This document shows positions 20,312 through 26,773 of a stretch of DNA of 36,211 nucleotides, in pieces. The DNA is taken from NCBI GenBank assembly GCA_009773415.1, contig WSNO01000025.1:1-36211 (forward strand), in the 5' to 3' direction. The position numbers and the translations under genes are program-made. The notes under the pieces were generated by a model, which searched no databases, was not told where the DNA came from, and saw only the letters and a program-made list of their open reading frames with translations. Each line of letters opens with the position of its first letter. Position 1 is the stretch's first letter. The DNA comes from Nitrospirota bacterium (GTDB lineage: Bacteria; Nitrospirota; Thermodesulfovibrionia; Thermodesulfovibrionales; Dissulfurispiraceae).

Positions 20312-21820
20312 TCAGAGCGTTGTGATCTCGAAGTTTTCCTGATGCAGCTTGTAATCATCCTTGATAATCAGCTTGATTGCGTATGTATGTTCGATATCTT
20401 CGATTCCCTGACGCTCATCATCAGTCAGCAGCTCTGCTACCGAAGGATTTGCCTTGATCATAGCCACCGATCCGCCCGGCAGGTTCATCTTCTTCAGCTT
20501 CCGGAAAATTTCGTATGCAATCGTCTGCGACGATTTGATAAAGCCCTTGCCTTCACAGTAAGGACACTGCTCGCACAGCACGCGGCCAAGGCTTTCCCGC
20601 ACGCGCTTGCGGGTCATCTGCACAATGCCGAGTTCAGAGAGATTGTATATGGTGCTTTTTGCCTTGTCGCGCTTCATCACATCGACGAATGCGTTAAATA
20701 CCTTGTCCCGGTTTTCGATCTTCTCCATGTCGATAAAATCAATGATGATAATGCCGCCGAGATTGCGAAAGCGAATCTGATAGGCAATCTCCTTCACTGC
20801 TTCGAGATTCGTCTTCAAAATGGTGTCTTCAAGACTTTCCTTGCCGACAAACTTGCCGGTGTTGACATCAATAACCGTCATCGCCTCTGTCTGGTCAATA
20901 ACAATATAACCGCCCGACTTCAGCCAGACTTTTCTTCCGAGTGCCCGGGAGATGTCGAGTTCAATGCCGAATGCGTCGAAAATCGGCTCGCGACCGTCAT
21001 AGAGTTCAATGCGTTCAAGCAGGCGGGGGAAATAGAGACCGGCAAACTCCTTGAGGTGCTCGTACTCGTCGACCGCATCGATGACGAGCCGCTCTACGTC
21101 CTGGCTCATGAAGTCGCGGACGCTCCGGTACACAAGATCGAGGTCACTGTAAATAAGCGAAGCCGACGGGGTCTTGTCTTTTTTGCGCTGGACATTGTCC
21201 CAGACCATAAGCAGAAATTCAAGATCTCGCCTGATTTCATCAACCGTTGCGTCTTCGCTCGCGGTCCTCATGATAAGGCCGCAGCCCTTCGGCTTTATCT
21301 CATACGCAATATCCTTGAGCGTTGACCGCAGTTCCTCATTCTCGATTCTGCGGGAAATGCCGACATGCTCCATATTCGGCATCAGGACAACATAGCGGCC
21401 CGGCAACGTAACGTACGAGGTTACACGGGCGCCTTTGGTGCCGAGCGGATCTTTTGCGACCTGCACAAGAATCTCCTGTCCCTCCTGTATCAACTCTTCT
21501 ATTGCCATGGTGCGCTCCGGATGCATCGGCTGGTCGCCATGATCTACAAGTTCGCTATCCTGGTCAAAGAGCGTGTTGTAATACTCCTCAACTGAAGTCA
21601 TAATGTCCGCAACATAAAGGAAAGCCGCTTTTTCAAGACCGATGTCAATGAATGACGACTGCATGCCGGGCAGAATCTTCAGCACCTTTCCTTTATAGAT
21701 GCTGCCGACAAGGCTCACATCACGCTTGCGTTCGATGTACAACTCAACGACCTGACCGCCCTCCAGCAGGGCGACACGGCTTTCTTCCCGTGTTACATTA
21801 ATTACCAGTTCACTTGTCAT
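20312..21820 (-). CDS. rng: Ribonuclease G (Rne/Rng family)
   Basis: The 502-residue protein is a short RNase E/G. It has an N-terminal S1 domain (GSIYKGKVLKILPGMQSSFI, then GLEKAAFLYVADI) and the catalytic DNase I-like region with acidic residues in TVIDVNTGKFVG and IIIIDFIDMEKIENRDKVF. The zinc-link segment is LCEQCPYCEGKGF, and a small C-terminal domain follows. No long scaffold tail is present, so it is RNase G-like: it matures 16S rRNA and takes part in mRNA decay. ATG 21820 overlaps the radical SAM stop by 4 nt (ATGA) and has GGTGGA upstream. The radical SAM-rng pair is a recurrent gene order in anaerobes. Confidence 0.93.
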   Translation of the reverse strand: MTSELVINVTREESRVALLEGGQVVELYIERKRDVSLVGSIYKGKVLKILPGMQSSFIDIGLEKAAFLYVADIMTSVEEYYNTLFDQDSELVDHGDQPMHPERTMAIEELIQEGQEILVQVAKDPLGTKGARVTSYVTLPGRYVVLMPNMEHVGISRRIENEELRSTLKDIAYEIKPKGCGLIMRTASEDATVDEIRRDLEFLLMVWDNVQRKKDKTPSASLIYSDLDLVYRSVRDFMSQDVERLVIDAVDEYEHLKEFAGLYFPRLLERIELYDGREPIFDAFGIELDISRALGRKVWLKSGGYIVIDQTEAMTVIDVNTGKFVGKESLEDTILKTNLEAVKEIAYQIRFRNLGGIIIIDFIDMEKIENRDKVFNAFVDVMKRDKAKSTIYNLSELGIVQMTRKRVRESLGRVLCEQCPYCEGKGFIKSSQTIAYEIFRKLKKMNLPGGSVAMIKANPSVAELLTDDERQGIEDIEHTYAIKLIIKDDYKLHQENFEITTL

Positions 21821-24282
21821 AGCGGTTCCACCCATCCATCTCTCCATCCATATACAGCTGTTCTTGCAACATCAAGTTCACGCAACGGCATGCCGAACAG
21901 GGTCTCGACGACCTCTCCAATCCGAACGCTGAATCCGGCGCCCTCCAGCAGCATTAACCAAAAAGCGCCTTCATGCCCTTCCACCGATTCGATGCACCGG
22001 GAAAGATCAATCCCTTTTCCATCACGCTCAACCATAATTGCAGACTTGCCGGACAATGCATCAGCAATTTCAGGCAGCAGCGCTGAAGGACGGCGCACGC
22101 GATACTGATAGCGCTTGATAAAGCTGCCGAGCGATCCGTTCTGACGGGAGACGACTGCCATTTGTTCGATATGCAGTCCGTCCGGCAGTGTTGCATTCAG
22201 CGCATTCGTATAGGATTCTACATCAAACGGAGCGGTTACCTCCATATCGAAGAATTCCCGTTCTCCGGCAACTCCGACTCCAAGCGGCGGACCGAAAGAA
22301 AGTTCCGGCTTCGGATGAAACCCTTCGGAAAGCACCACCGGCACATCAGCACGCCGCAACGCGCGGAGCAGCACAGTCATCAACTCCAGATGAGAAAGAT
22401 AGCGGAGTCGTCCCGACTTGGAAAATCGCACCCGTATGCGGAGCCGGAGTCCGGCGCGTTTCTGCGCAGCGGAGCGCCGCCCCTCTGCAGGCACCTCACC
22501 AGCAGTCAGCATCACGGGCGGTTTCAGCGCCTGCTCAGCGCACCGCAAGCCGCATCCGGTGCAGTTGACCCTGCAATCCTGCGTTATGGAGCCCTGCAGA
22601 GCACGATTGAATTCAGCAGCGAGATATTTTTTTGTCACGCCGATGTTCACAACGTCCCACGGAAGCGCGGCATCAATTTCAAATCGGCGCTGCGCGTAGG
22701 AATGCCCGTCTATGCCGGTTGCATCCATGGCATCACGCCACTTTCTGAAATCGAAATGCTCGCTCCAGCCGTCGAGTCGGCAGCCGAGACGCCATGCTTT
22801 CTCAATCAGACCGCCAAGACTGCTGTCCCCGCGCGAAAAGACGGCTTCCAGAAAACTCGTCTCCGGATCATGCCCCTTATACTTGAACCGCCTGCCGCCA
22901 AGGTCGCTCCGAAGAAATGCAAGTTTGCGACGCAGCTCCTCCAGCGGCTCCTGTCCCGACCACTGAAAGGGAGTGTGCGGCTTCGGCACAAACGGAGAGA
23001 CCGTAATCCCGATATTCACAAAACGTCCGGTATGCTTCTTCGCGATACGAAGCGCCCGCATCGCCATCTCGCCGATTGCCTGAATATCAGCGTCCTGCTC
23101 CGTCGGAAGGCCAATCATGAAATAGAGCTTCAGCGTCTGCCATCCCTCGCCGAAGAGCGCCAGCAACGCGGCTTCATACGCTTCATCGGTAAAGTCCTTG
23201 TTGATGACCGTCCGGAGCCGCAGCGTAGCCGCTTCCGGCGCCATGGTGAATCCGGTTTTGCGAACGGAGCGGATTTCTCTCAGCACGTCACGATTCACCG
23301 CGCCGACGCGGAGCGACGGCAGGGCAAGTGCTGTGCCGGTGCCGGCGAAACATTGATTCAGAGAGCGGACAAGCGGCAGCAGCTGTGAGTAGTCTCCTGC
23401 GCTCAACGACGAGAGCGACACCTCGCTGTACCCTGTTGCAAAGATTGATTGCTGCGCAATCCGCAGAATGTTCTCCGGGCTTCGTTCGCGCAACGGGCGG
23501 TACATCATGCCGGCCTGACAATATCTGCATCCCCGCGTGCAGCCGCGGGATATTTCTATTGCAATGCGGTCATGCACAATCTGCATGTACGGAAGCACCG
23601 GCTTGGTTGGGAAGGGTGCGGTATCAAGGTCGCTGACAATGCGCCGTTCAATACGCGATTCGCCTGAATGCAGCCGGGGAACATACACTCCGGAGATAGC
23701 TGCAAGAGCATGCAGCAATGCGTCCCTCGAGCGTTCGCCCGATTGTTTCCATTGGAGCGCCGCCGCGAGTATCTCAACAACAGCTTCTTCTGCCTCCCCT
23801 ATCAGAAACGCGTCGATAAATCGCTCCATCGGCGCAGGATTCACCGTACACGGACCGCCTGCAATCACCAGAGGCATATGACCGGACTCTGCAGCACGTG
23901 TTTCAGCAGACACTGGAATTCCCGCAAGGTCGAGCATATTCAGAACACCGGTATAGGAAAGCTCATACTGCAGACTGAACCCGACAATATCAAATTCCTT
24001 CAGCGGGCGCTGCGTCTCAAGAGAAGCAAGAGAGAGCGACTGCCGCCGAACATATTCCTCGAAATCCGGCCATGGAGCAAAGACACGCTCAGCAGCGGCA
24101 AAGGGAAGAGCATTGATGATGTCATATAATATCCGAAGCCCGAGATGCGACATCCCGACTTCATAGACATCCGGGAATGCTAGCGCCATACGCACATGAT
24201 CAGCCGGCATCTGCGGTTTATAGCACGCATTATATTCAGCGTTAAAATATCTGCTCGGTTTTTGAAAAAGGGCAAAATTCAT
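21817..24282 (-). CDS. TIGR03960 radical SAM protein fused to TIGR03936/DUF2344
   Basis: The 821-residue protein has an N-terminal B12-binding-like region (about residues 1-200) with VYEVGMSHLGLRILYDIIN and FDIVGFSLQYELSYTGVLNM. The radical SAM core contains EISRGCTRGCRYCQAGMMYR (CxxxCxxC). The C-terminal DUF2344 domain (about 620-800) has RVRFSKSGRLRYLSHLELMT and SEGFHPKPELSFGPPLGVG. The full fusion length is normal for the family. Its reaction is unknown; the steady link with RNase G suggests a role in RNA or ribosome modification (inference). A short CxxCGLRCAEQ cluster sits before DUF2344. ATG 24282 has a weak GGATG site. It is the first gene of the seven-gene operon that runs to DUF2007. 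Confidence 0.9.
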   Translation of the reverse strand: MNFALFQKPSRYFNAEYNACYKPQMPADHVRMALAFPDVYEVGMSHLGLRILYDIINALPFAAAERVFAPWPDFEEYVRRQSLSLASLETQRPLKEFDIVGFSLQYELSYTGVLNMLDLAGIPVSAETRAAESGHMPLVIAGGPCTVNPAPMERFIDAFLIGEAEEAVVEILAAALQWKQSGERSRDALLHALAAISGVYVPRLHSGESRIERRIVSDLDTAPFPTKPVLPYMQIVHDRIAIEISRGCTRGCRYCQAGMMYRPLRERSPENILRIAQQSIFATGYSEVSLSSLSAGDYSQLLPLVRSLNQCFAGTGTALALPSLRVGAVNRDVLREIRSVRKTGFTMAPEAATLRLRTVINKDFTDEAYEAALLALFGEGWQTLKLYFMIGLPTEQDADIQAIGEMAMRALRIAKKHTGRFVNIGITVSPFVPKPHTPFQWSGQEPLEELRRKLAFLRSDLGGRRFKYKGHDPETSFLEAVFSRGDSSLGGLIEKAWRLGCRLDGWSEHFDFRKWRDAMDATGIDGHSYAQRRFEIDAALPWDVVNIGVTKKYLAAEFNRALQGSITQDCRVNCTGCGLRCAEQALKPPVMLTAGEVPAEGRRSAAQKRAGLRLRIRVRFSKSGRLRYLSHLELMTVLLRALRRADVPVVLSEGFHPKPELSFGPPLGVGVAGEREFFDMEVTAPFDVESYTNALNATLPDGLHIEQMAVVSRQNGSLGSFIKRYQYRVRRPSALLPEIADALSGKSAIMVERDGKGIDLSRCIESVEGHEGAFWLMLLEGAGFSVRIGEVVETLFGMPLRELDVARTAVYGWRDGWVEPL

Positions 24283-24301
24283 CGGCGCATCACATCCTGA
24301 G

Positions 24302-24347
24302 AAAAAGATTCGAGCAAGGAGCTCCTCTGTGCGGATCTCCTTGCTCG
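24302..24347 (-). terminator. Rho-independent terminator of the H1-like gene
   Basis: CGAGCAAGGAG (24311-24321) and CTCCTTGCTCG (24337-24347) form a perfect 11-bp stem with a 15-nt loop. On the minus strand it is followed by AATCTTTTT. It lies between the short H1-like gene and the radical SAM operon and should separate them. Confidence 0.8.
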
Positions 24348-24383
24348 TTTAGATAGTACAAAAAAAAAGACCGAAGCGCGCTA

Positions 24384-24506
24384 CTATTTCTTTACTGCTG
24401 CCTTCTTCGGAGCTGCTGCCTTCTTCGGAGCTGCTGCCTTCTTCGGAGCTGCTGCCTTCTTCGGAGCTGCTGCCTTCTTCGGGGCTGCTGCCTTGGTAGC
24501 TGCCAT
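24384..24506 (-). CDS. 40-residue histone-H1-like AAAPKK-repeat protein
   Basis: The product is MAATK, five copies of AAAPKK, then AAVKK: only Ala, Pro, Lys, Val, Thr and Met. Such Lys/Ala/Pro tails resemble eukaryotic histone H1 and bacterial H1-like proteins (HctA/AlgP/AlpB tails) and bind DNA or RNA by charge. Here there is no folded domain at all. GGAGG precedes ATG 24506 at good distance; the longer reading to 24584 is not needed. It is a monocistronic gene with its own terminator, so a short abundant transcript is plausible. Confidence 0.75.
   Translation of the reverse strand: MAATKAAAPKKAAAPKKAAAPKKAAAPKKAAAPKKAAVKK
24401..24490. repeat. Five tandem 18-bp repeats inside the H1-like gene
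   Basis: The unit CCTTCTTCGGAGCTGCTG repeats at 24401, 24419, 24437, 24455 and 24473. The copies are identical except for one silent A-to-G change in the last copy (24483). Each unit encodes one AAAPKK hexapeptide, so copy-number change keeps the frame. Confidence 0.95.
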
Positions 24507-24944
24507 AGTTACGCCTCCCTTATTAGGAAATATTTCTACAATCATACAGCATAAAAACATCAAACTACAAGCACTTACACGCATTTATTTGTCTGCAAAT
24601 TATGAGGCAGAGCAGTCATCCGGCACTGCCGGCAGTGTAGGAAAAGCACTTGGAGAAATCCAGTCACAACCTTCAAACATAGTCATATCAGGCATCTATA
24701 AGATTCTTCACGTTTGTGATTCTTCTGCCTCGGGAATCTGAAGCAGCGTTTATCGGCACCCATCATGAATGAATATTTTTTTATCGGCATAAAATATTTT
24801 CTCGATACGATTATTTATTCGGCGCTGCAATGATCATCGCATCGCTCACGGCAAGGCCTGCCAAGAGCATGATTCATGCTGTTGAGGAGATGAGCCGTTC
24901 TGGTTTCAAAGCACAGCCGGAGCTCTTCGCTGAGATATTCTCTT
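24507..24944. other. Intergenic stretch, no gene recognised
   Basis: This AT-rich gap lies between the divergently transcribed H1-like and CBS-GGDEF genes. A dyad ATTTG-TCTG-CAAAT (24587-24600) and a weak minus-strand TTGTAG-N18-TATGAT pair could be the H1-like promoter region. No credible reading frame or RNA gene is seen. Confidence 0.35.
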
Positions 24945-24973
24945 CTGACTTTTTTCAATTCATCTGATATAAT
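24945..24973 (+). promoter_or_regulatory. Sigma-70 promoter of the CBS-PAS-GGDEF gene
   Basis: CTGACT (24945-24950), a 17-bp spacer and a consensus TATAAT (24968-24973). The transcript would have a leader of about 55 nt before ATG 25034, with no clear Shine-Dalgarno site. Confidence 0.6.
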
Positions 24974-25033
24974 CTAAAAAAGAAGTTCCGCAAATGCCGT
25001 ACTTATGCGGCTGCACCGCACTCACTGACCAAA

Positions 25034-26773
25034 ATGAAACCGATAACCAGGACATTGCATCAGGAACTGTTTGATACGAAAACGGTGAGCGATATTCTCG
25101 ATCCCTTGTTCGTGCATGTCGAACCGGAATCCAATGTCGTGACCGCACTTGCGCTTATGCGCCAGCACAAGCTTCGCTGCATCGCCGTAACATATAAGAA
25201 AAAGCCTGTCGGCATTTTTTCCGAACGCAATCTTCTTCTTGCCGCGCATTATCGGCGCGATCTCGAGGTCCTTCCGGTAGAAGCCGTGATGAGCTCTCCT
25301 GTCATTGCGGTTCCTGACAGCACGTTGCTCTTTGAGGCCTTTGCGCTTATGCTCAATGAGCGTGTTTCATTTCTTGCGGTTGTCGACCACAATGGCGACT
25401 GCATCGGTGTCGCATCGCGAGCCGGTATGGTAAATATCTTTGGCGTATCGTTCTTTTACCAAAATAAAACGGTGTCAGATGTCATGCTTCGCACTGTTGC
25501 GACAGCTCATCGCGGCGAGAAGATTTCTGCTGCGTGCGCCAGGATGGCTGAGACCGGTGAACCCTGTATACTGCTGGAGCATGAGCGCAAACCGCTCGGA
25601 ATCATGACTGCACATGATATGAGTGCATTGATTCTTTCGGGTGCGGATCTTTCTGCCTTCAGGATAGAAGATGTTGCGGCAAAGCCTATTATCAGCATCT
25701 CACCGTCGGCATCGCTTGATGAGGCAATCGCCCTGATGAATACGCACGAAATCACAATCCTGGTTGTTATCGACCAATCCGGCCAGATCGCCGGACTGAT
25801 TACAGAAGATGTCGTGCTTGCCGGCATTGAAGCACCGTATTTCCGGGCATTCAGGAGCATGCTGCAGCAGAGACAGGATCGCATTGCCGACAGAAATCGT
25901 GAACTGACCGAGCGTTCGCTCTTCCTTGAACAGATCCTCACCGTTGCCTCCGACACTGCGATCATCGCGACCGACCTGTATCTCAAGATCAAATATTTTA
26001 ATGACGCGGCCTCCATGCTTCTCGGCTCAAAACCTTCCGATGTCATCGGCTTGAGCCTTCCGGATCTTTTCTCCAAGGTGCAGTTCGAGCAGGTGCATTT
26101 CTCTCGCGGGATCGATGCGGTGCAGCGTAAACACAAATACACCTATGCGACGGAGTTCCTCCGCGAATCTGCTCACCTTCTGCTTGATTGCTGGGTAACC
26201 GGCATCCGCGCCGAAGATGACATCCTCTCAGGATATGTCTGGATGGCACGCGATGTAACTGAGCACCGTGAGCTTCAAGAAAATCTGCGTCGCCCGCTTC
26301 TGAGATGCAGGTTGACAGGACTTCTGAACCGGCAGTCTCTGCTTGATACGCTTATGCGGGAAATCGATCGCACCAGCCGCTACGGTTCGCCGTTCTCCGT
26401 TATCATGCTCGATGTGGACCGCCTGAAGACTTTGAATGACACGTTCGGCTACCATGCCGGAGATGCTGTACTCCGCCAGATCGCCTCCATGATGTCCTCC
26501 AATATGCGCCGTGTGGACATTGCCGGACGATGGGGCGGAGGCGAATTTGTCGTGATTGCCCCGGAGACATCCGAGTCGGAAGCAACTTCGCTTGCAGACC
26601 GCATTCGCGAACTCATTGAAGGACATTATTTTGATGAGGTCGGTGAAGTGACGATTAGTGGCGGGGTTGCACAGTATCGGGGCGAAGAGGATGCTGATTC
26701 CATTATCCGCAAGGCGGAAAAAGGGCTGTCCCGCGCAAAGAGCCGGGGGCGCAACCGGATAGAAGCAGCATAA
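25034..26773 (+). CDS. CBS-PAS-GGDEF protein with degenerate GGGEF site
   Basis: The 579-residue cytoplasmic protein has four CBS motifs in two pairs (about residues 15-135 and 145-265; for example VTALALMRQHKLRCIAV and LDEAIALMNTHEITILVVID). A short helical linker, a PAS domain (about 300-410) and a GGDEF domain (about 420-579) follow. CBS pairs usually bind adenine nucleotides, so an energy-state input is likely. The catalytic motif reads GRWGGGEF (GGGEF at 501-505): the metal-binding acidic third residue is replaced by Gly. The RxxD inhibition site (R492-D495) is kept. The protein may bind c-di-GMP rather than make it. The start is uncertain because no ribosome site is visible. Confidence 0.88.
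   Translation: MKPITRTLHQELFDTKTVSDILDPLFVHVEPESNVVTALALMRQHKLRCIAVTYKKKPVGIFSERNLLLAAHYRRDLEVLPVEAVMSSPVIAVPDSTLLFEAFALMLNERVSFLAVVDHNGDCIGVASRAGMVNIFGVSFFYQNKTVSDVMLRTVATAHRGEKISAACARMAETGEPCILLEHERKPLGIMTAHDMSALILSGADLSAFRIEDVAAKPIISISPSASLDEAIALMNTHEITILVVIDQSGQIAGLITEDVVLAGIEAPYFRAFRSMLQQRQDRIADRNRELTERSLFLEQILTVASDTAIIATDLYLKIKYFNDAASMLLGSKPSDVIGLSLPDLFSKVQFEQVHFSRGIDAVQRKHKYTYATEFLRESAHLLLDCWVTGIRAEDDILSGYVWMARDVTEHRELQENLRRPLLRCRLTGLLNRQSLLDTLMREIDRTSRYGSPFSVIMLDVDRLKTLNDTFGYHAGDAVLRQIASMMSSNMRRVDIAGRWGGGEFVVIAPETSESEATSLADRIRELIEGHYFDEVGEVTISGGVAQYRGEEDADSIIRKAEKGLSRAKSRGRNRIEAA

Follow-up and report, generated by a model that had tools for sequence, protein, structure and literature searches.

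A stand-alone K/A/P-rich gene of variable length in a Nitrospirota family, probably encoding a minimal nucleic-acid binder

Structure of gene A and its repeat array

What could a bacterium gain from a protein that consists of almost nothing but one hexapeptide? The question is raised by a short gene, hereafter gene A, in a contig of 36,211 nucleotides that forms the window of the present analysis, one of the 61 contigs of a 2.46-Mb Nitrospirota genome. Gene A (24384..24506) is located on the minus strand, with the ATG at 24506-24504 and the stop codon at 24386-24384, and encodes a 40-residue product, MAATK(AAAPKK)5AAVKK, which has a net charge of +13 by residue count. An earlier note on this DNA had described an AAAPKK protein of about 40 residues with five hexapeptides and short ends, and the minus-strand reading frame bears this out. 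The five 18-bp units coding for AAAPKK (24402..24491, minus strand) had also been called perfect repeats, which holds for four identical units, whereas the first one carries one silent GCC/GCT difference. TRF detected a single array at gene A (24395-24494), with a period of 18, 5.6 copies and 98% matches. The protein sequence alone would not demand so repetitive a DNA: of the 29 pairs of identical residues spaced six codons apart, 26 use the same codon, a score equalled by one out of 2000 within-gene codon shuffles. Compared to its orthologues, the array is among the more uniform ones in the family, consistent with a recent expansion.

Searches with the 40-residue protein retrieved no Pfam family (E<=1), no NCBIfam family (E<=10), no PDB sequence (E<=10) and no match in a phage collection, and an Rfam search of 24100-25100 gave no match either. 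The absence of a folded domain, as previously claimed, agrees with a product of 40 residues that is all repeat apart from its five-residue ends and lacks a Pfam match. A whole-genome search with the protein returned gene A itself and one weak match of 36% identity; as it missed the second lysine-rich locus of the same genome (locus B, see below), such searches under-report these short proteins. A DNA match on contig C59 was rejected, because it belongs to a different gene (L002, 1498-1725) that encodes an apparent small lipoprotein with a tail of PKAPEA-type repeats.

Expression signals and genomic context

A Shine-Dalgarno sequence, GGAGG, lies at 24514..24518 on the minus strand, 7 nt before the ATG of gene A; the strong ribosome site claimed earlier is in fact good but not exceptional. 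Further upstream, a promoter-like element, CTTGTAGTTT-N-TGTATGAT (24541..24571, minus strand), is aligned in the other 18 complete orthologues, the common form being CTTGnAnTTT...TGTATTAT. Gene A was the sole match of this pattern in its own genome, and a sigma-70 promoter scan did not flag the element. Scanning eight genomes yielded nine matches, five of which are gene A promoters, against four matches in the reversed control. With these numbers and no regulon in sight, the pattern was rejected as a regulon marker. It is also approximate, since its strict form missed the gene A promoter in three of the eight genomes (G001, G002 and G005).

Downstream of gene A, a terminator occupies 24301..24347 on the minus strand, consisting of a hairpin (24347-24311) with an 11-bp outer stem and a U-rich tail (24310-24301, AAUCUUUUU). 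The hairpin folds with a z of -2.19, and 5 of 200 shuffles fold equally well. A promoter/terminator scan with a loop limit of 8 bases did not find it; nevertheless, a matching hairpin followed by a T run is visible at the locus of a congener (L004), and the folding supports the terminator that the earlier note had placed after the gene. The hairpins in the spacer between gene A and the next gene differ in sequence among genera and look unrelated.

This next gene encodes an 821-residue radical SAM and DUF2344 protein (21817..24282, minus strand), followed by a gene for a ribonuclease E/G family protein (20312..21847, minus strand). The named relatives of the radical SAM/DUF2344 protein with higher identities are mainly from Nitrospirota MAGs (Nitrospiraceae, Thermodesulfovibrionia). 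By eye, the radical SAM gene has a promoter-like TTGCCT-17-TATTTT at its start codon, which is also present in relatives that lack gene A (L006, L009 and others). We infer from this element that gene A and the radical SAM gene are separate transcription units. As judged by eye in the window (24282-24320) and its relatives, the -35/-10-like boxes end in most cases a few bases before the start codon, and transcripts of the radical SAM gene may lack a leader.

Distribution and length change of gene A

Using the radical SAM/DUF2344 gene as a synteny anchor, which was found in 30 of the 31 family genomes, we identified an ORF rich in K/A/P(T/V) at 100-150 nt upstream and in the same direction in 20 of the 30. 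Nineteen of these genes are complete, including that of the present genome, and the twentieth (G042) is cut by the end of its contig, which leaves only the 3' end. All 19 complete ORFs are open and encode proteins of 25-98 residues with net charges of +9 to +39, composed of K/A/P/T/V, in addition to some Glu in G004 and G007. Gene A was not found at the radical SAM locus of the other ten genomes (G003, G009, G011, G015, G017, G030, G031, G032, G033 and G037) and is therefore dispensable in the lineage. Gene A is a conserved gene in the family.

Outside the family, the same slot holds different ORFs. In six other Nitrospirota loci (L036, L038, L041, L043, L048 and L064) it harbors a small unrelated Cys-containing ORF of the MKKEKINCFNCTHFFITWD... 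type; that of L038, the one searched, has no Pfam match at E<=1. In another family (L020), the slot is taken, ~148 nt before the radical SAM gene, by a Lys-rich ORF of 35 residues, which has a Cys/His pattern like that of a zinc finger and weak Pfam zinc-finger matches.

Comparison of closely related species revealed in-frame length differences of 10, 17 and 19 residues between flanks that are similar or nearly identical. For instance, the genes of G013 and G039 encode 40 and 50 residues, respectively, with 97 of 99 upstream and 99 of 102 downstream aligned bases identical, and those of G034 and G036 encode 59 and 40 residues with 103 of 105 downstream bases identical. The third pair, G012 and G041, has 49 and 66 residues. 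The codon differences are mostly silent, with 11 silent and no replacement changes for G013-G039, 3 and 2 for G034-G036, 23 and 1 for G012-G041, and 26 and 3 for G004-G016, and less one-sided for G034-G035 (13 and 8); as the pair alignments maximise amino-acid identity, all these counts lean towards silent changes. Moreover, a codon-level signature of tandem duplication is present in 10 of the 19 orthologues (matched by at most 23 of 2000 shuffles) and absent in nine. Together with the in-frame differences in close pairs, these signatures indicate that the change in repeat number between species is real. The frame-preserving copy-number change proposed earlier is thus found among orthologues of 25-98 residues. 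The earlier note had named a constant copy number with synonymous divergence in relatives as the contrary outcome; in the relatives, copy number varies alongside silent divergence.

When 149 genomes of the order were searched with a profile, 35 had matches, a figure that is not to be taken as a count of gene A, since chance stretches and tails joined to Cys-rich domains came up along with tail-only ORFs. Four loci (L142, L146, L147 and L153) have K/A/T-rich tails fused to a Cys-rich, desulforedoxin-like C-terminal domain, that of L142 matching Desulfoferrod_N with an E of 0.16. Two family genomes (L080 and L094) encode proteins of the SWIB/MDM2-domain type with K/A/P-rich N-terminal tails, the SWIB match of L080 having an E of 4e-32.

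A second K/A/P-rich gene at locus B

Following up weak profile matches led to a second position, locus B, where a short K/A/P-rich ORF sits just downstream of the gene for a 181-residue winged-helix protein and is convergent with a gene that we take to be lpxC. In the present genome this ORF, MAATKKAPAKKAAAKAPAKKAAAKKK, encodes 26 residues (L134, 2122-2202, contig C38) and has a long Shine-Dalgarno match. The ORF is present in all 28 family loci, the present genome included, which come from 27 of the 31 genomes, the other four having no winged-helix match. Its length within the family is nearly constant (21-29 residues), and its ATG is preceded by Shine-Dalgarno sites of the AAAGGAGGTGA or AAAGGGGGTGA type. 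Among 35 similar pairs of equal length, we counted 245 silent and 97 replacement codon differences. Nine of the ten genomes without gene A possess locus B, and the tenth (G011) gave no winged-helix match. Five loci (L112, L113, L114, L116 and L118) carry a second B ORF in tandem after the first.

Beyond the family, a B ORF of 18-120 residues was found in 29 of 34 winged-helix loci at the order or class level, and not in the remaining five, namely four of family f2 and L211. At the phylum level, 12 of 21 loci have an ORF of 17-20 residues ~500-540 nt after the winged-helix gene, with AAAGGGGGTG; in eight loci no B ORF was found within the ~600 nt examined, and in L204 the ORF is cut midway by the end of the stretch examined. 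The B ORFs, rich in K/A/P/T, come from loci among L112-L139, L171-L207 and L212-L228, with the Shine-Dalgarno sequence AAAGGRGGTG across Nitrospirota. The criterion used for these ORFs picked out none on either strand of the 36-kb window, where gene A, being less lysine-rich, also escapes it. Despite the shared composition and the lack of a folded domain in both products, locus B differs from gene A in its lpxC-adjacent position, its near-constant length in the family and its much longer Shine-Dalgarno matches. On our best reading, locus B would represent, with mostly shorter peptides, a kind that is more widespread in Nitrospirota, and gene A would be its second copy, specific to the family.

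Similarity to known proteins

The closest known counterparts are the lysine-rich repeat proteins Hc2/HctB of Chlamydia and the Hc2-like proteins of Bordetella (BpH1) and Burkholderia (PF07382), which share evenly spaced charges with the gene A product. Hc2 is reported to bind DNA and to vary in length by whole repeats through in-frame duplication and deletion (PMC2848022), a mode of length change shared with gene A. In contrast, Hc2 has 165-237 residues and, at its C-terminus, a portion to which the even charge spacing does not extend, compared to the 25-98 residues of gene A products, which are nearly all repeat. The short K/A/P/T repeats with regular positive charge that characterise PF07382 are seen in the five AAAPKK units of gene A, yet the protein of the window does not reach the gathering score of the profile and hits no family at E<=1. 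Nine of 12 sampled members of the gene A family match Pfam HC2 at E<=1 (best 2.5e-8), counted by E and not by gathering score, and a locus B member of another family passes the HC2 cut-off with 43.5 against 40 bits. As the protein of the window fails this profile and is far shorter, we did not assign it to Hc2.

The C-terminal domains of AlgP (AlgR3) and PhaF of Pseudomonas resemble gene A in their disordered KPAA-type tail and repeat-number variation; KPAA-repeat peptides of AlgP are reported to bind DNA in vitro and the repeat number to vary among isolates (PMC9239181). However, the AlgP tail is joined to a predicted α-helical N-terminal domain, whereas the 40-residue gene A product is repeat up to its five-residue ends, with no attached domain. 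Likewise, the winged-helix globular domain of linker histone H1 does not fit into a protein of this size, which has no Pfam match. The H1-like proteins of trypanosomatids and Toxoplasma lack this globular domain and, like gene A, present the composition of an H1 C-terminal tail on its own; the Toxoplasma protein TgH1-like, with 91 residues, is reported to associate with both ribosomal proteins and chromatin (PMC9769792). These belong to eukaryotic chromatin, the Toxoplasma protein is longer than the gene A product of the window, and there is no evidence of common descent. Searches of the open-access full texts of PMC turned up no description of the Nitrospirota tail-only proteins. Gene A and locus B encode tail-only micro-proteins at fixed loci, which by analogy would function like Hc2 or H1 tails.

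Proposed function of gene A

We propose that gene A is probably a genuine, monocistronic gene whose product, encoded by an in-frame array, is a minimal disordered polycation and likely a non-specific coat or condenser of nucleic acid; the gene would represent a family-specific second copy. By analogy to the DNA binding of AlgP KPAA repeats and Hc2, the product, with the composition of a histone H1 tail (Hc2/AlgP C-terminal domain) and no folded domain at all, would bind nucleic acid non-specifically, probably condensing DNA in the first place, via electrostatic contacts of its regularly spaced KK pairs, and its prolines and alanines would hold the chain extended. The array would grow and shrink in frame by tandem duplication and deletion, under selection that would keep composition and frame rather than exact length. 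We infer that the gene is expressed, that its product is abundant and that it binds nucleic acid and affects the nucleoid; with three HU-family genes in the genome, it would play no more than an auxiliary part in the nucleoid.

Whether DNA or RNA is bound cannot be read from the composition alone, and the main rival explanation, though a good deal less probable than the one proposed here, makes gene A a small RNA- or ribosome-binding protein, an abundant polycation on rRNA or mRNA rather than a chromatin protein. Very abundant basic peptides would be expected to look like those of locus B, down to 17-20 residues and with near-perfect Shine-Dalgarno sequences; the nearby ribonuclease E/G gene points the same way, as does the Toxoplasma H1-like protein, which is reported to associate with ribosomal proteins in addition to chromatin (PMC9769792). 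On the other hand, gene A appears to be transcribed separately from the ribonuclease gene, and the same repeat type, KPA, is reported to bind DNA in AlgP (PMC9239181).

It is somewhat less probable still that the copy number is a fast adaptive switch, a dial selected for tuning nucleoid charge, along the lines of the earlier note. Such a dial would agree with the nearly uniform 18-bp units of the window and with arrays that differ in length, but not in frame, between very close genomes. However, neutral indels could produce the same variation in any array of this sort, so that length may instead drift while composition is loosely constrained, and nine of the 19 orthologues lack a clear repeat signature at the codon level.

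Gene A might instead encode a leader peptide that acts as an attenuator, so that read-through to the radical SAM and ribonuclease E/G genes would depend on how the repeat is translated. Its fixed place, 100-150 nt ahead of the radical SAM gene and on the same strand, with a hairpin terminator between them, would allow this. The span of lengths from 25 to 98 residues makes such control unlikely, as does the promoter that the radical SAM gene seems, by eye, to have for itself even where gene A is absent; furthermore, the intervening hairpins look unrelated between genera, and a protein of this kind is encoded in a different setting at locus B.

Very improbable is a tether of the AlgP/PhaF type that would link the nucleoid to granules of polyphosphate or PHA: the KPA repeat composition is shared with the C-terminal domain of AlgP (PMC9239181), but the gene A product has no N-terminal domain to hold a granule, and the tether is further weakened since a search of the genome with two profiles, PP_kinase (PF02503) and PhaC_N (PF07167), gave no match. 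Finally, that gene A is a spurious or decaying low-complexity ORF, as its very low complexity and its absence from the locus in 10 of 30 family genomes might suggest, is scarcely credible in view of its conserved position, promoter-like element, Shine-Dalgarno sequence, terminator and silent-biased divergence across genera.

Extending our preferred reading of gene A as a nucleic-acid condenser to the whole phylum, we tentatively raise the possibility that the stand-alone polycations of Nitrospirota, of 17 to about 120 residues and at two fixed loci in the family of the window, form a largely overlooked class that serves as a minimal, domain-free linker-histone- or protamine-like condenser, whose dose might be set by the near-perfect Shine-Dalgarno sequence of locus B and whose reach by the repeat number of gene A.

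Altogether, the present findings suggest that bacteria possess polycations of the H1-tail type as genes in their own right, 17 to about 100 codons long, whose place on the chromosome is kept in much of a phylum. Genes this short easily escape gene callers and profile searches. With locus B nearly constant in length within the family and gene A variable, the two loci provide a natural experiment on array length and nucleic-acid condensation.
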